DNA from: Clostridiales bacterium | GTDB lineage: Bacteria; Bacillota; Clostridia; Oscillospirales; CAG-272 | Reading direction: 5' to 3' | DNA: 44,471 bases | Assembly: GCA_012519315.1 (NCBI GenBank) | Contig: JAAYQM010000037.1 | Location: 1-44,471 of the forward strand | Part shown: positions 19,175 to 25,869 of the stretch, one piece after another | Layout: each line of letters starts with the position of its first letter | Numbering within the stretch: position 1 is the stretch's first letter | Notes under the pieces: model-generated | The model's database searches: none | The model's input: only the letters and a program-made list of their open reading frames with translations | What the model was told of the DNA's origin: nothing | Position numbers and translations under genes: made by a program

Positions 19175-20101
19175 ATGAGGAATCGGTGTCATTTTATGGG
19201 TCGCATCTATTATCAACGGGAAACTCCCGACCAAAAGCTAAACGGTAATTGTCCTGAAACCTTTTTTGCCGAAAAGCCCCGATACTTCAGCGATATAATT
19301 TTTCACTCCCGAAGCGATACCTCAGATTTTTATGTGGTCACCGCCGGTCATGACAAAAGCTGGCCGGACAAGATTATCCAGGACAGGGTCACCGACCGGC
19401 TGATGATCTTGTTTGTGGTTGACGGTCAGGGATATATCGATGACCGGATCGTTGGTGCGGGGCAGGGTATATTTCTCTACCCCAACGAGAAGCATTCCAT
19501 AACACAGGAAAAAAGCAACCCCATGGAGCTTTATTTCCTCACCTTTCGCGGCTCTAAGATGGCGGAATTTATTATAAATGCCGGGCTGCAGAACATACCT
19601 CGGGTCTTTGAGTATAACTGGCAGGACAAAATCATACCGATCTTTGAGGATATGATCTACCGCTCCCATGAGGGGGCGGATATGGAAATGTATCTTTACG
19701 GAGCCTCCCAAATGATCATGTCCTACCACAAGCATCACTACAACAAGGAAAAACGGGATCCTTCCCTTAATTCCAAGGCAAGATATGTGAAGGAGGCGGT
19801 CAACTATATCCGCCACAACTTCACCAGGGATATCTCGGTTGCCGAAATTGCAAACCAGCTACACCTGACCCCAAACTACCTCGGAAACATCTTCAGGGAA
19901 GAGCTGGGCTACTCTCCCATGTCCCTGATTATCTCCCTGCGCATGGCTCATGCCCTGAATCTTCTGGTGGAAAATCAGTTTACCGTCAAGCAGATTGCAT
20001 GGATGGTGGGATATAAGGATTATTCCCAGTTTTCCAAGATGTTTAAGAAGCATTACGGCATTTCTCCCACCGCATACGCTGAAAGACTGCTCCAAAAATA
20101 G
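19175..20101 (+). CDS. AraC-family transcriptional regulator
   Basis: A 308-residue regulator. The N-terminal part (about 45-150) is a cupin-like sensor domain with LFVVDGQGYIDDR and FLYPNEKHSI. The C-terminal 100 residues hold two helix-turn-helix motifs: ISVAEIANQLHLTPNYLGNIFREELGYSP and FTVKQIAWMVGYKDYSQFSKMFKKHYGISP in two halves, ending in the usual TAYAERL. Such regulators usually respond to sugars and act on adjacent genes. The start may be ATG 19175 or ATG 19196; neither has a convincing ribosome binding site. It points at the surface protein and binding protein genes downstream, its likely targets. Confidence 0.9.
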   Translation: MRNRCHFMGRIYYQRETPDQKLNGNCPETFFAEKPRYFSDIIFHSRSDTSDFYVVTAGHDKSWPDKIIQDRVTDRLMILFVVDGQGYIDDRIVGAGQGIFLYPNEKHSITQEKSNPMELYFLTFRGSKMAEFIINAGLQNIPRVFEYNWQDKIIPIFEDMIYRSHEGADMEMYLYGASQMIMSYHKHHYNKEKRDPSLNSKARYVKEAVNYIRHNFTRDISVAEIANQLHLTPNYLGNIFREELGYSPMSLIISLRMAHALNLLVENQFTVKQIAWMVGYKDYSQFSKMFKKHYGISPTAYAERLLQK

Positions 20102-20191: not shown

Positions 20192-20284
20192 ATATCGAAT
20201 CTACCTCAAAATATTTATTTTGCATAGTTTTCACCGAGGCGTGTGAACGCTTTGTTAAAATTATGTGAAAAAAAGGAGAGTTTT

Positions 20285-21184
20285 ATGAAAAAGAAACTAC
20301 TAGCCATCTGTGTTTTGACGGTTATGCTGGTCTCTGCATTGTTTGTCAATGCTTCGGCCGCGACCTACAGCCCCGGTCAGATTATCTACAAGGATGATTT
20401 TGACGGGAACTCCGGTTATGACTATGCAGTTACAGCCTCAAACACCACAATTTCAGACCTGACTGTTGCTATCAACTCCAAGGGTCAGCTTCAGTTTACC
20501 AAGACCGGTGAGAAGGATCCCGACGGACGCTACTATATGTTCCCCTATGAAGCTATTGCAGGTGTTGATTCCTTTACCGTTATCTATGACCTTTACATCT
20601 ATGAAAAATCGGGTACCGATGTTACCGCTCCTTTCTTCGCCTACGGTATGAAGATCAACACCGACGGCTCCCTTAACGCACGCTACGGTGGCTGGGGCTA
20701 CAACAACTCCCCGATGCATATAGGCTACTACCTTGACGGCGTCAACAAAAACTCTTATGCAAGCCTCTATACCGATGAAAGCTATGAAACCAAGCTTACC
20801 TATGATGCCACTAAGGATACAACCTCGGTTTATAAAATGAAGCTTGAGGCGACAAAGGGAACATGGCCTGCAGATGTTACTGTCAACGGCACCTGCTACA
20901 ATATGCGGGAATTCAGCCCTGCTTCCTTTGATCAAGAGGGCTGGACTGACGGCGCTTTCGGCTTTGTTTTCCGTCAGTGCTCTACCTTTGACTTTGCAAT
21001 TGACAATCTCGTAATCTATGCCGGCACCGGGGTCGAACCTGTCGAAGAGACCACCGCTTCGGACAGCACTACCTCGCCTGTTACCGGAGACGCAGGATTT
21101 ATAATCGCTCTTACTGCAGTGGCAACCCTTGCGGTTGTTTCGATCCCTCTTATCAGCATAAAAAAGAGCAGAAGAAGCTCATAA
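20285..21184 (+). CDS. Secreted cell-surface protein with SPxTG-like C-terminal anchor
   Basis: A 299-residue exported protein of unknown function. The signal peptide (MKKKLLAICVLTVMLVSALF) ends at NASA-A, a signal peptidase I site. The mature part (about 30-245) is rich in Tyr, Gly and Asn with alternating beta-type patterns (ILYKDDFDG-like opening, FAIDNLVIYAG ending), resembling jelly-roll carbohydrate-binding or LamG-type domains; that is inference. A Thr/Ser linker, SPVTGD, one membrane helix and KKSRRSS form a cell-wall sorting-like tail, though not the exact LPxTG. I start at ATG 20285 behind AAGGAGAG; an in-frame ATG at 20243 would put 14 residues before the signal. It lies between AraC and a binding-protein gene. 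Confidence 0.75.
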   Translation: MKKKLLAICVLTVMLVSALFVNASAATYSPGQIIYKDDFDGNSGYDYAVTASNTTISDLTVAINSKGQLQFTKTGEKDPDGRYYMFPYEAIAGVDSFTVIYDLYIYEKSGTDVTAPFFAYGMKINTDGSLNARYGGWGYNNSPMHIGYYLDGVNKNSYASLYTDESYETKLTYDATKDTTSVYKMKLEATKGTWPADVTVNGTCYNMREFSPASFDQEGWTDGAFGFVFRQCSTFDFAIDNLVIYAGTGVEPVEETTASDSTTSPVTGDAGFIIALTAVATLAVVSIPLISIKKSRRSS

Positions 21185-21287: not shown

Positions 21288-22748
21288 ATGAAAATTACAA
21301 AGATTATCGCTTTATTGCTGTGCGTTGTTTTTGTGGGAGCCATCTTTGCCGCCTGCGGCGATAAAACACCCGATGATACTACAAATTCGAGTACCACAAC
21401 CACCGGGGACACATCGGCTACAACCGATGCCGACGGCTATATTCTGGACGAGCTTCCCGATCTTGATTTTGAGAATCGGACTATGACTATTCTTCAGTGG
21501 AAAACATATACGGCAGAATTTAACACCGAGGAGAGGTCGGGGGACGCTGTAAGCATTGCCCTGTACGACCGCATCTCCAATGTGGAAAGCCGCCTCAACT
21601 GCAATATTGAAATTATCGAGGAGCCCGGCGACTGGGATCGCCGCAATTCCTTTGTCAGCCTTGCGGCAAAGAGCATAAATGCCGGGGATGGGGAGTATGA
21701 CCTTATTTCCCAATACAGTATGTCCGCCTCTATCGGAACAATGCAGGATCTCTATCAGGACATTTCCCAGCTCAGATATGTGGATCTGGAAAAGCCCTGG
21801 TGGCCTGACGACCTCGCAAAATCCACCTCGATAAACGGAAAGATCTATTTTGTTTCGGGGGATATTGCACCTACTCTTATCTATAATTTGTTTGTGATTT
21901 ACTTTAATCAGAATATGCTTAACAAATTAGGCTATGAGTCACCCTATGGGCTTGTCGATGAAGGAAAATGGACCTATGACAAGCTTAAGGAGATGACTGC
22001 TGGTCTCTATGAGGACCTTAATAATGACAATGTCGCCAATGGTGATGACCAGTACGGCATGATTCTTAACTACACCGTCTTGGTGGATGCCTTCCAATAT
22101 GCCGGCGGCATCAACATCATTGATGTCGGCAACGATGGAGTTTATCAGCTCTCACCCAGCTTTGGAAGCGAGAAGGCCGCTACCTATCTTGCAGACCTTT
22201 GCGAATACATCCACGGATCCAATGATGTCTTTATCAATTCCAACAATAATAATTCCTTCTTAAACGGGAACACCCTTTTCCTTGCCGGTACCATTGACAA
22301 CGGTGTAAAAAATGTCAGTGCCGTTGATTTTGATTACGGTATTGTGCCCATGCCGAAATATGACGAGCAGCAAGATGGTTACAACTCCCTTGTGGGATTT
22401 GCCTATTCGATGTACACAGTGCCTGTTGACGTGAAGAATGCAGAGCAGTCGGGAGCGCTCCTTGAGGCCCTTGCCTCGGACGCCTACCGCAACATTACCC
22501 CGGAGATCTTCGAGGTCGCTCTGAAGTATCGCTATTCTCTTAACAAAGAGGATTCCCGTATGTATGACATTGTCAGGGACGGTATTGTATTTGACGTTGG
22601 ACGCAATTATGCCGATGCTCTCGGCTCCGCCTTCGGTCTTTTCCGCAACGCAGTTGTCAACAACAATCCCAACTGGGCGTCCATCTATGCCTCAAACAAG
22701 GATTCTATCGAAAACAAGCTGCAGGATATAATCAACAAGATAGGCTGA
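21288..22748 (+). CDS. Extracellular solute-binding lipoprotein
   Basis: A 486-residue ABC-type substrate-binding protein. The signal ends in the lipobox AIFAAC (Cys23), followed by a Thr/Ser/Asp-rich linker (about 25-50). The mature part has family-1 style features: SVNGKIYFVSGD-like segment, LFVIYFNQNMLNKLG, WTYDKLKEM, LNNDNVANGDDQYG and the late FDYGIVPMPKYDEQQ. This group usually binds sugars or oligosaccharides. TAAGGAGAA precedes the ATG. No permease or ATPase gene lies nearby, so it must work with transporter parts encoded elsewhere or as a receptor. The next gene starts 48 nt downstream. Confidence 0.88.
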   Translation: MKITKIIALLLCVVFVGAIFAACGDKTPDDTTNSSTTTTGDTSATTDADGYILDELPDLDFENRTMTILQWKTYTAEFNTEERSGDAVSIALYDRISNVESRLNCNIEIIEEPGDWDRRNSFVSLAAKSINAGDGEYDLISQYSMSASIGTMQDLYQDISQLRYVDLEKPWWPDDLAKSTSINGKIYFVSGDIAPTLIYNLFVIYFNQNMLNKLGYESPYGLVDEGKWTYDKLKEMTAGLYEDLNNDNVANGDDQYGMILNYTVLVDAFQYAGGINIIDVGNDGVYQLSPSFGSEKAATYLADLCEYIHGSNDVFINSNNNNSFLNGNTLFLAGTIDNGVKNVSAVDFDYGIVPMPKYDEQQDGYNSLVGFAYSMYTVPVDVKNAEQSGALLEALASDAYRNITPEIFEVALKYRYSLNKEDSRMYDIVRDGIVFDVGRNYADALGSAFGLFRNAVVNNNPNWASIYASNKDSIENKLQDIINKIG

Positions 22749-22796: not shown

Positions 22797-24545
22797 ATGG
22801 TTAAAAACTTGAAAAAAACAATATTGGCTTTATTGTGCCTCGTTCTCCTTATAAGCTGTGTTGCCTGTGGCGGGGGAGACCCCGCCCTCTCCTCGGAGAG
22901 CACCGATGAAAACAGCCCGGACGAGAACCCCTCCTCGGTACAGATTATATCGGAGGGCACTGCTCTGTATCAGATAGTTCGGGCTGATGAGGCGGGCAAG
23001 GATGTCAAGGAGGTGGTGTCCGCCTTCCACCGGAAGATTAAAGAAAAGACGGGCGTCGAGTTAAAAATAAAGACTGACTGGCTCGGTAGGGGGGAGGAGC
23101 GGGACCCTGGCGCTAAGGAGATACTTATCGGCATTACAAATTATGAGGAAAGCCAGAGGGTACTTGACAGCATAAATTATAATGATTACGCCATCAAAAT
23201 TGAGGGCAGTAAAATCGTTATCATAGCCCATAATACCACCATGCTCCAGAGGGCGGTCAATTATTATGTGAGCACCCTTTCCGGCAATCTGACCCTTGAC
23301 GACGAGGGGAGGGCTGTCTCCCTTACCCTTTCCGAATATGTTTATACCGGGGACTACCCCATAAATTCCATAGCCCTTGCAGGCAGGGAGCTGCGGGACT
23401 ATCGCATCGTTTATGACGAGGGTTCGGTGGCTGCCAAGGAGGCGGCAGAGGAGCTGAAAAAGCGTATCGCCGCTGTCTATCCGGCGGTTTTGCCTGTTGT
23501 GGGTGACTCTGCGCCGGCGACCGAGGGGGAGATCCTTATCGGGAGGACAAATCGCCCCGAATCGGAACAGTATTATACCGAAAATGATATACCCCTTATC
23601 GATTACCGGATATTGGTGAAGGGGGGCAAGCTGCTTTTCTGCGCCGGCGGCAACTATGCCATCGGCAGGGCGCCCGTTGCCTTTGGTGAGAAATTCCTGC
23701 TGCTGAAGAAGGATAAAGTCGCAATTGATGACAATATGACCCTTTCTTCTGCGGAGCAGAGAGAGTATCAGCCCCTTGCCGAGGGGGCGGACCTGCGCAT
23801 TATGACGGCGAATATCCTCGCCGAGAAATGGGGCGGCACTCCCGAGGCTATGCGCTCCGAGCTGTTTGATTCGGTGCTGAGAAGCTATCTGCCCGATGTT
23901 GTGGGGCTTCAGGAGATTGCCGACGAGTGGACCGATCTTGTAGAGTCCGCCTTTGACGGTAAATATGCCTATGTTCACGCTTACACCCCCGAAAAGCTGC
24001 AGAATTACAGCACCATGATTTATCGACAGGACAAGTTTAGTGTTATTGAAAGCGGGGTTTATTACTTCAAAACTCATAAGCTTAACAATATCCGGCTTGT
24101 AACCTGGGCGGTTTTTGAGAGGAAGTCCGATTCGGTCCGCTTTGCGGTCTTTAACACCCACTGGAGCTTTGATTCGGTGCAGGTGCAGATTAAGCATGCG
24201 GAGGAAATGTTCGAGCTGATTGACCGCGTTTGTGCAAAATATGACGTGCCTGTATTTTGTACCGGAGACTTTAATGCAAAGCCGTCTACCGATTCGTATA
24301 AACGGTTTGTCGAGCTGACAGGGCTTTCTGACGTGCGTGTCACCGCTGAAATCAATGTAAATCCGGAGGTTTGCGGCACCCATCCCTTAGGGGTTAAAAA
24401 CTGGAACGGTGAAAATAATATTGACCATATCTTTGCATCGAAGGATATTAAGGCATTAAAATTTGAAACGATAGTCGGAAACGCCGTTGTTGATCTGTCC
24501 GATCACTGTCCGAGGTATGCCGACTTTGCTTTACCAAAACAATAA
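22797..24545 (+). CDS. Exported endonuclease/exonuclease/phosphatase (EEP) family lipoprotein
   Basis: A protein of about 580 residues. The signal leads to a Cys (LISC at residue 21, or Cys24), so it is a likely lipoprotein. Two related N-terminal units follow, marked by EILIGITNYEES (about 109) and EILIGRTNRPES (about 245), resembling the small domains that precede catalytic domains in some glycoside hydrolases. The EEP domain (about 335-582) has ANILAEKWGG, VGLQEIAD, NTHWSF, TGDFNAKP, NIDHIF and LSDHCPRYADF, covering all metal and catalytic positions. It may cleave a phosphodiester or phosphomonoester. ATG 22797 directly abuts AGGA; TTG 22809, 12 nt after AGGA, would give MKKTILALL and may be the true start. 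Confidence 0.82.
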   Translation: MVKNLKKTILALLCLVLLISCVACGGGDPALSSESTDENSPDENPSSVQIISEGTALYQIVRADEAGKDVKEVVSAFHRKIKEKTGVELKIKTDWLGRGEERDPGAKEILIGITNYEESQRVLDSINYNDYAIKIEGSKIVIIAHNTTMLQRAVNYYVSTLSGNLTLDDEGRAVSLTLSEYVYTGDYPINSIALAGRELRDYRIVYDEGSVAAKEAAEELKKRIAAVYPAVLPVVGDSAPATEGEILIGRTNRPESEQYYTENDIPLIDYRILVKGGKLLFCAGGNYAIGRAPVAFGEKFLLLKKDKVAIDDNMTLSSAEQREYQPLAEGADLRIMTANILAEKWGGTPEAMRSELFDSVLRSYLPDVVGLQEIADEWTDLVESAFDGKYAYVHAYTPEKLQNYSTMIYRQDKFSVIESGVYYFKTHKLNNIRLVTWAVFERKSDSVRFAVFNTHWSFDSVQVQIKHAEEMFELIDRVCAKYDVPVFCTGDFNAKPSTDSYKRFVELTGLSDVRVTAEINVNPEVCGTHPLGVKNWNGENNIDHIFASKDIKALKFETIVGNAVVDLSDHCPRYADFALPKQ

Positions 24546-24573
24546 TCTTTATATCAGAAAGGCAAATAATATT

Positions 24574-25767
24574 TTGAACTCCCCTGTAATACTACCTTCC
24601 GGACATTTGCTTAGCAATTTCTGCATTGTATATGCGGCAAAGCCAGACGGTCTCGATTTGGCGGCACATGCCCTTTACAGCTATATCGTTGCCAGATTCG
24701 GCGTCCATCTGCCGGTCATTACCGATGCCGAGCCGGAGAGTGAATGCGAATTTTTGATAGGAAAGACCAATCGGGAGGAAAGCCGAAAATTCTATGGCCA
24801 AAACAATATCTCCCGGCTTGAATATACAGTTGCCTGTGACGGCAACAAAATCATGATCTTTTCCGGTGGCGTACATTCTGCGATGAGTGCGGTTGAGTTA
24901 ATCTGCAGTCAATATATGCCCTTTGAGGATGGGGCAAATCTGATCGTTCTGCCAAAGAGCCTCAAAAAGAACCTGTGGAGCGAGAAAAACAAGCCCCTAA
25001 CTCCCGGGGCGGATCTTCGGGTCATGTCTACCAATATTCTTGCTCGGCGCTGGGGTGGAACGGATGAGCGCCTGCGGATTGAAATTTTAGCTCACAATAT
25101 CGACTGCTATAAGCCGGATATTATTGGGGTGCAGGAGGTGGCGGACAGATGGACGGACATGGTCCGCGAGTATCTGGGGGGGCGCTATGAGTTTGTACTC
25201 CCCTATACCCCTGAGGATAAGCAGAATTATTCAACCATCATGTACCAAAAAAACAAATACAGCCTGATTGACAGCGGGGTTCACTATTTTAAGACCCACG
25301 GCGTCAACAACATCCGCCTTATCACCTACGGGGTTTTTGAGGATAAAAAGAGGGGGCTGCGCTTTGCCCACTGCAACACCCACTGGAGCTTTGACTCGGA
25401 GGAGATACAGATCGAGCATGCCATCGAGGGGGCGGAGCTGTCCTGTCGCATCGCTGGGGAATACGGTGTTCCCGTTTTCCATACCGGGGACTTTAATGCA
25501 ACACCTGAGTCGGAGTCCTATCGAAGGTTTCTTGAGGCGGGGGATCTGCAGGATGCCTTCTTTACCGCCGAGAGGCTTGTAAACGGTGCCTATAGCGGCT
25601 GTCATAATCCCGGCTCCTACACCATGCGGGGTAAGAACAATATTGACAAAATTGCCGCAACAAAGGATGTTAAGCCCCTCGTCTATGAAACGGTCCTCGG
25701 CAATGAGGTTATCCATCTGTCCGACCATTGCCCGAGATATGCCGACTTTGTTCTGCCGAGGAAATGA
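24574..25767 (+). CDS. EEP family protein without signal peptide, paralogue of the preceding gene
   Basis: A 397-residue tandem paralogue of the preceding protein. It keeps one N-terminal unit (EFLIGKTNREES) and the full EEP domain: NILARRWGG, GVQEVADRWTDM, NTHWSF, TGDFNATP, NIDKIAATKD and LSDHCPRYADF. The Asp of IDxI and the SDH His are kept; Lys replaces the His after Asp, a position that varies in the family. I favour TTG 24574, 11 nt after AGAAAGG and just after the upstream stop; ATG 24517 or 24487 would overlap the first gene. No choice gives a signal peptide, so the protein appears cytoplasmic, unlike its neighbour. About half of the EEP residues match by eye. Confidence 0.75.
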   Translation: MNSPVILPSGHLLSNFCIVYAAKPDGLDLAAHALYSYIVARFGVHLPVITDAEPESECEFLIGKTNREESRKFYGQNNISRLEYTVACDGNKIMIFSGGVHSAMSAVELICSQYMPFEDGANLIVLPKSLKKNLWSEKNKPLTPGADLRVMSTNILARRWGGTDERLRIEILAHNIDCYKPDIIGVQEVADRWTDMVREYLGGRYEFVLPYTPEDKQNYSTIMYQKNKYSLIDSGVHYFKTHGVNNIRLITYGVFEDKKRGLRFAHCNTHWSFDSEEIQIEHAIEGAELSCRIAGEYGVPVFHTGDFNATPESESYRRFLEAGDLQDAFFTAERLVNGAYSGCHNPGSYTMRGKNNIDKIAATKDVKPLVYETVLGNEVIHLSDHCPRYADFVLPRK

Positions 25768-25839: not shown

Positions 25840-25869
25840 AAAAAACCGGAGGAATTCCTCCGGTTTTTT
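25840..25869. terminator. Bidirectional terminator
   Basis: CCGGAGG (25846-25852) and CCTCCGG (25857-25863), loop AATT, flanked by A6 and T6. It separates the EEP genes from the convergent oxidoreductase gene. Confidence 0.9.

Follow-up and report, generated by a model that had tools for sequence, protein, structure and literature searches.

Two-compartment glycan use, as in the Sus-like loci and the ATP-binding cassette (ABC) systems of Gram-positive bacteria, employs an outer enzyme, a binding protein, an importer and an inner enzyme. We describe here two adjacent genes, gene 1 and gene 2, at positions 22,797 to 25,767 of contig JAAYQM010000037.1 of a Clostridiales bacterium (assembly GCA_012519315.1; GTDB lineage Bacteria; Bacillota; Clostridia; Oscillospirales; CAG-272). 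The whole 44,471-nt stretch is referred to hereafter as the window. Both genes encode a domain of the endonuclease/exonuclease/phosphatase (EEP) superfamily preceded by an N-terminal unit (N unit). Like the two-compartment glycan systems, the window sets an exported enzyme, a sugar-type binding lipoprotein and a non-exported enzyme of the same family side by side. Unlike them, its enzymes are phosphoesterases by family, the inner and outer enzymes are sister copies and no permease lies alongside.

By profile and by fold, the nearest solved EEP domains to the window proteins are the Bacteroides structures 3g6s, 3mpr and 4c1r. Their chains of 267 to 298 residues have room for the EEP domain only, unlike the window proteins, and to our knowledge, no search having been made, no exported/inner twin pair has been described for Bacteroides EEP proteins. 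The N unit has a predicted fold in common with the accessory domain of glycoside hydrolase (GH) families GH67, GH115, GH20 and GH84 (Glyco_hydro_67N, Glyco_hydro_20b, NAGLU_N). Compared with the GH enzymes, the gene 1 protein has this domain doubled, and what follows it is an EEP domain in place of a TIM barrel. A Lachnospiraceae locus (L066 8686-13558) holds an exported EEP protein followed by two permease-like proteins and a 602-residue exported protein, so that the EEP lies next to what reads from sequence as a complete sugar ABC importer; it differs from the window in that no N unit was found in its EEP protein and no second EEP in the locus. A search with few terms, most subscription journals being outside its scope, found no open-licence paper on EEP twins or on the union of a GH accessory domain with EEP. 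PMC13339134 cites a paper on yeast mannan (Nature 2015). The parts of the window proteins belong to known families; what appears to be new is the tandem GH accessory domains joined to EEP and the recurring exported/non-exported twins. We consider it possible, at somewhat less than an even chance, that a single phosphorylated glycan or glycan-like compound is the substrate of paralogous EEPs of matched specificity in two compartments. The two genes and their domains are as follows.

22797..24545, + strand: gene 1, predicted exported lipoprotein of 582 residues with two GH67N/GH20b-like units and an EEP domain
22797..22859, + strand: gene 1 signal peptide with lipobox-like LLIS-C21 (pattern, and hydrophobicity of 3.30 over 12 residues)
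22923..23369, + strand: gene 1 N unit 1, residues 43-191, motif EILIGITNYEES (profile match)
23355..23753, + strand: gene 1 N unit 2, residues 187-319, motif EILIGRTNRPES (GH67/GH115/GH20 accessory-domain fold)
23787..24539, + strand: gene 1 EEP catalytic domain, residues 331-581 (PF03372)
24574..25767, + strand: gene 2, non-exported EEP protein of 397 residues from TTG 24574, a single N unit followed by an EEP domain
24577..24975, + strand: gene 2 N unit, motif EFLIGKTNREES
25009..25761, + strand: gene 2 EEP catalytic domain, catalytic residues intact, 55% identical to the gene 1 EEP domain

An earlier note on this DNA had given the coordinates, frames and domains of both genes correctly, and the lipoprotein signal and two units that it saw in gene 1 were recovered as the LLIS-C21 pattern and as profile matches. 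A signal peptide with lipobox, as in bacterial lipoproteins, is predicted for gene 1 from the sequence pattern and the hydrophobic stretch. The motif (E/F)LIGxTNRxES, also from that note, is indeed the motif of the unit but was slightly misquoted relative to EILIGITNYEES, EILIGRTNRPES and EFLIGKTNREES.

The pair recurs in other genomes. EEP matches at E up to 1e-10 are present in at least 134 of 395 genomes of the family, and an adjacent exported/non-exported pair was found at 15 of 88 EEP loci, a selected sample, in about nine lineages. The 15 loci (the window, L043, L044, L045, L053, L064, L143, L145, L146, L148, L150, L152, L182, L187 and L195) contain 16 exported genes with a non-exported EEP partner on the same strand no more than 600 bases away. 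L064 comes from a Clostridia metagenome-assembled genome from roe deer caecum. The inner partner carries one N unit, none that was found or, in L152 alone, two. These 15 loci rule out a pair unique to the window genome, which the earlier note had named as a finding that would count against its proposal. A gene was scored as exported when the 12-residue hydrophobicity before its first domain reached at least 1.95. The genes of L144 and L158 that are cut by contig ends were set to exported by hand, L054 was left unlabelled in the trees, and L151, labelled non-exported, lacks a start close to its N unit and might be an exported gene that is broken. The lineage count and the neighbour tests below rest on the 88 loci, with 16 paired and 69 unpaired exported genes. 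Longer arrays were also observed. In L153 (5401-9033), four non-exported EEP genes stand in tandem, and no N unit was found in any of them. L144 (3-6971) is a tandem run of four N-N-EEP genes, of which the contig end cuts the first, with no non-exported partner in the 10 kb covered.

The partners are sisters or close kin in eight of the about nine pair lineages. In a careful tree of 102 rows, with 14 further rows left out (long branches, other lineages), the window pair are sisters with support of 100/98, and the partners of L148 and of L053 are each sisters at 100/100. The L143 trio is supported at 100/99, L043 with L147 at 99/89 and the L152 pair at 97/73. L187 and L195 form one clade (100/98) and the L195 partners are sisters at 99/57; L044, L064 and L145 (100/97) and L150, L182 and L053 (100/99) are clades as well. 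The exception is L045 and L146, whose partners meet only in a 14-row set, at 94/41. A quick tree was built from 116 of the 121 EEP frames, the five dropped being, by our reckoning, four from loci that had entered the set twice (L074, L156, L165) and one fragment. In this tree the outer and inner copies occupy separate supported branches in L044/L064/L145, in L150/L182 and in L045/L146, indicating that both forms were kept across genomes.

On the 102 rows, the exported/non-exported label requires at least 18 changes, 14 of them forced by well-supported branches. Shuffled labels require 24.6 changes on average and none of 500 shuffles was as low as 18. The labels therefore cluster beyond chance, which indicates that the non-exported state is also inherited. 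A single ancient split between exported and non-exported forms is ruled out (approximately unbiased test, p 3e-69). The sister pairs may have come about either by local duplications, repeated in several lineages, or by gene conversion. The earlier proposal of the same chemistry in two compartments is compatible, at the level of sequence, with the sister relationship in the window and with the intact catalytic residues described next.

PF03372 matches gene 1 at E 5.6e-14 (52.8 bits) and gene 2 at 1.1e-9 (38.8 bits) against a cut-off of 24.5 bits, and gene 1 has the EEP fold (VIA Z 32.5). The EEP catalytic set, which we take to be Asn, Glu, His, Asp-x-Asn, Asp and His, is present in gene 1 as N339, E373, H455, D491, N493, D543 and H570. 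It is intact in both window domains and in all 30 non-exported and all 85 exported EEPs, with D543 replaced by E in one non-exported and two exported domains (3 of 115). A profile search of the PDB was led by three Bacteroides structures, 3g6s (8e-37), 3mpr (5e-24) and 4c1r (7e-24), of which 4c1r is Bt3783, titled mannosyl-6-phosphatase in the PDB. Nocturnin (4e-17), the uncharacterised 3l1w (4e-16), PDE12 (4e-14) and TDP2 (best 6e-13) came next, and the sphingomyelinases 3k55 (1e-9) and 1zwx (4e-6) and DNase I (9e-4) ranked lower; 9sf8 and 9sf9 (562-563 residues, named EEP domain-containing protein) were also among the matches. The Bacteroides group led the fold search too (Z 32.5, 32.1 for 4c1r, and 31.8), followed by 3l1w (29.4) and neutral sphingomyelinase (27.5). 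By both profile and fold, the nearest group is that of the Bt3783 type.

The N units of both window genes are real repeats: the gene 2 unit matches gene 1 unit 2 at 2e-14 and unit 1 at 7e-4 (phmmer, small set). Unit 2 of gene 1 was modelled alone with a predicted local distance difference test (pLDDT) score of 86. The model has the beta-alpha-beta-beta-alpha-beta-beta-alpha fold of the GH67N/GH20b accessory domain and matches GH67 1gqi at VIA Z 12.7 over 130 residues (3.1 A). Accessory domains of GH67, GH115, GH20 and GH84 were matched at Z 12.7 down to about 9 and that of GH138 was matched as well, with a few non-GH chains ranking lower (BcsB, Z 10.4; S-layer domain, Z 10.0). Structure prediction therefore bears out the link to GH accessory domains that the earlier note had asked about. 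Another of its suggested checks, a profile search, succeeded only for some relatives of the unit. Their best Pfam E values were 1.9e-11 for Glyco_hydro_67N and 8.9e-7 for Glyco_hydro_20b, and the window units themselves had no Pfam match up to E 0.1. The TIM barrel that follows the accessory domain in GH enzymes is not present in either gene; the EEP domain stands in its place.

The unit was found at E up to 1e-6 in at least 31 of 59 genomes searched. We surveyed 47 non-EEP proteins with the unit (44 of 55 such proteins, plus three from L060-L062), in which Glyco_hydro_67N was matched by 6, Glyco_hydro_20b by 6 and NAGLU_N by 5 (E up to 0.01). Their partners, among the best 25 of 39 families, were DUF4838 (11), the metallo-beta-lactamase fold (5), alkaline phosphatase (4), GH43 (3), GDPD (2), GH26 (2), GDSL (2) and NAGPA (1); relatives carry the unit on GH76 proteins too. 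At least nine proteins in the window genome bear the unit: four EEP, three metallo-beta-lactamase-fold (one scoring below Pfam's cut-off) and two GDPD proteins. The N unit is therefore a module shared by hydrolases at large, often carbohydrate-related ones, while the nine of the window genome bear phosphoesterase-type or metallohydrolase folds. It is ruled out as an EEP-specific marker, since it sits on many other proteins. Examples on GDPD and metallo-beta-lactamase-fold proteins are found at L060 (4118-5935 and 6035-9076), L061 (6260-8026), L062 (7631-9703) and L233 (3588-5315). L060 and L062 have a binding protein and an exported protein beside the unit protein, and so repeat the gene set of the window with a different catalytic domain.

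Gene 2 aligns to the C-terminal two thirds of gene 1. Its candidate starts are TTG 24574, TTG 24526, ATG 24517 or TTG 24487, and a signal peptide was sought from every possible start without one being found. The best 12-residue hydrophobicity mean in the upstream frame (24475 on) is 1.37, compared to 3.30 in gene 1. A hidden signal is ruled out, there being no signal-type hydrophobic stretch in the open frame from 24475, and gene 2 stands as described earlier, with one unit and no export signal. No ATG or GTG in gene 2 is preceded by a clear ribosome-binding site (at least 4 bases of AGGAGG). Such a site does precede an ATG or GTG at or ahead of the first domain in 27 of 30 non-exported genes. 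Among internal ATG codons the figure is 164 of 952, which is a rate per codon, and some non-exported genes offer more than one candidate start.

The window contig (C128) belongs to a 1.99 Mb genome that is 97% complete. On the + strand the order is AraC regulator, exported protein, solute-binding lipoprotein, gene 1 and gene 2, followed by the terminator. The features around the pair are listed here.

19175..20101, + strand: AraC-type regulator that probably controls the gene set (PF12833 and PF02311)
20243..21184, + strand: exported protein of 313 residues (from sequence; likely true start ATG 20285)
21288..22748, + strand: sugar-type solute-binding lipoprotein of 486 residues, 48 nt upstream of gene 1 (profile of relatives)
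25840..25869, either strand: bidirectional intrinsic terminator with a 13-pair stem, which closes the gene set

The exported protein has no Pfam or NCBIfam match. It ends in SPVTGD, a hydrophobic stretch and then KKSRR, which is presumably a sortase-type anchoring pattern. An EEP gene elsewhere in the window's genome adjoins a relative of this protein (L052 11584-12507). The solute-binding lipoprotein has no Pfam match of its own above cut-off, and a profile of 12 relatives matches the solute-binding protein 2zyk at 4e-8.

A binding-protein gene lies on the same strand within 3 kb of 12 of 16 paired and 13 of 69 unpaired exported genes (Fisher 3.5e-5). We regard an association of the pair with the binding protein as unproven. 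Of the co-occurrence that the earlier note proposed, what stands is a binding-protein gene at most pair loci and an AraC gene at some; the binding-protein link is not independent of ancestry. Some pair loci have AraC-type genes, whose counts are to be taken loosely, near the exported gene; at L044, L045, L064, L146 and L148, for instance, they are 66 to 315 bases off on the other strand. CE2_N or GDSL-type esterases are encoded at pair loci L045, L146 and L148 (the last with a CE2_N score 0.1 bit under cut-off), as well as at L149, L191 and two further loci, and F5/8C proteins at pair locus L064. PHP-domain proteins were considered as a substitute for the inner twin and rejected, as they occur at 4 of 88 loci, which is too few.

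The window genome has 11 PF00528 places, none of them on C128. Matches to the window-type binding protein also number 11, the window's included, and lie on C128, C11, C25 (two), C59, C96, C100, C13, C6, C115 and C20. The only sugar-type permease locus, with two pairs, is on C112 (L259), as read from size and sequence; a permease locus on C126 reads as a polyamine-type system. It is possible that an importer is shared among binding proteins. The many orphan binding proteins perhaps use one common importer or are surface glycan binders. L259 (817-12958) appears to encode a 988-residue protein with a binding-protein-like part and the two permease pairs, along with an NHL-like 708-residue protein and a 1037-residue exported protein. 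Two permease pairs similar to these in size and spacing were present in 7 of 8 relatives searched (G028, G032, G106, G214, G372, G426 and G431).

If the twin EEPs do act on one compound, the gene 1 protein would be tethered outside, where its paired accessory domains would hold the substrate while its EEP domain takes off phosphate or cleaves a phosphoester. The solute-binding lipoprotein would then capture the product, an ABC importer encoded outside the gene set would bring it in, and the gene 2 protein would finish phosphoester removal in the cytoplasm. A compound cut outside and again inside, as the earlier note had it, would fit this scheme. What the sequences show is the domain anatomy, the intact catalytic residues, the sister relationship, the recurring pair and the predicted N-unit fold; we infer the cellular location, the glycan substrate, substrate binding by the N units, import and the order of steps.

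Several points weigh against this scheme. No adjacent twin accompanies 69 of the 85 exported EEPs, and some non-exported EEPs stand alone. The pair counts are not frequencies, because the regions were chosen partly for neighbouring matches that suggested pairs. The link between pair and binding protein is lost once phylogeny is controlled for, with a median p of 1 over the 6 independent contrasts that supported branches provide. The window gene set has no permease and so no complete sugar ABC importer, and with one sugar-type permease locus for 11 binding-protein matches, import is not tied to the window locus. Window gene 2 is itself among the 3 of 30 non-exported genes lacking an ATG or GTG with a clear ribosome-binding site. 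Enzymes of nucleotides or nucleic acids (nocturnin, PDE12 and TDP2) rank soon after the Bacteroides group. That the substrate is a glycan is again something we infer.

The best surviving alternative is that gene 2 is a by-product, local duplicates of exported EEP genes often losing their 5' part and having an unrelated, minor or no function. This we consider unlikely, although the non-exported form did arise locally and repeatedly, exported copies are tandemly duplicated too (L144), and the exported genes without a twin, the alignment of gene 2 with part of gene 1 and its weak start all suit the idea. Against this, every one of the 30 non-exported EEPs keeps its catalytic residues (one with D to E), a ribosome-binding-site match marks an ATG or GTG in 27 of these genes, and the outer and inner copies hold separate branches in L044/L064/L145, L150/L182 and L045/L146.

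Lipid scavenging is a further alternative that we judge distinctly unlikely. The exported EEP would be like a phospholipase C or sphingomyelinase, the gene set would harvest phospholipid head groups, and the inner twin would process a phosphodiester after its import, for instance a glycerophospho-compound. Sphingomyelinases belong to EEP and resemble the window domain in fold (8j2f, Z 27.5; 2ddr, Z 23.8), with staphylococcal beta-hemolysin 3k55 and 1zwx recovered by profile. Their profile scores are nevertheless far below those of the Bacteroides group (8e-37 to 7e-24) and also below those of nocturnin, PDE12 and the best TDP2. Fusion of the N unit to GDPD in the window genome and to alkaline phosphatase in relatives would suit a lipid substrate, yet the accessory domain, like the binding protein, is of a carbohydrate type. 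Likewise, the GDSL proteins at some pair loci might be thought to act on lipids, but they bear CE2_N, a carbohydrate-esterase domain.

Scavenging of nucleic acids or nucleotides, by a surface nuclease or nucleotide phosphoesterase and a cytosolic counterpart, has a slim chance of being correct. The ranks of nocturnin, PDE12 and TDP2 speak for it, as do weak NCBIfam exonuclease III matches, far under cut-off; the Bacteroides group is clearly ahead of these enzymes, DNase I reaches 9e-4 only, and here too the carbohydrate type of the accessory domains and binding protein counts against the idea. Finally, a frameshift joining genes 1 and 2 into an exported N-N-EEP-N-EEP protein, leaving nothing cytosolic, is very improbable: the open frame of gene 2, with its weak start, shares about 70 nt with the end of gene 1 and frames overlap in 8 of 15 pair loci, but in the other 7 (L053, L064, L143, L146, L150, L182 and L195) they do not, so that a frameshift cannot join them there and fusion is ruled out as a general rule, and most non-exported genes have their own start.

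The two-compartment reading can be extended to the family, as a tentative and on balance doubtful proposal. About nine of its Clostridia lineages may have evolved the twins, mostly beside a sugar-binding lipoprotein, as a route for phosphorylated glycans with phosphate removal on both sides of the membrane, and may have refitted GH accessory domains to swappable EEP, GDPD, metallo-beta-lactamase-fold and alkaline phosphatase domains. If true, the accessory-domain swap would tie EEP, GDPD, metallo-beta-lactamase-fold and alkaline-phosphatase proteins to carbohydrate use, and the outer and inner sister enzymes, whose active sites are intact, would form a concrete test set. If the proposal holds, a large uncultured group would also have a named feeding strategy for phosphate-bearing glycans. 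With its repeated origin, the inner copy offers a natural experiment on the need for the same chemistry twice.

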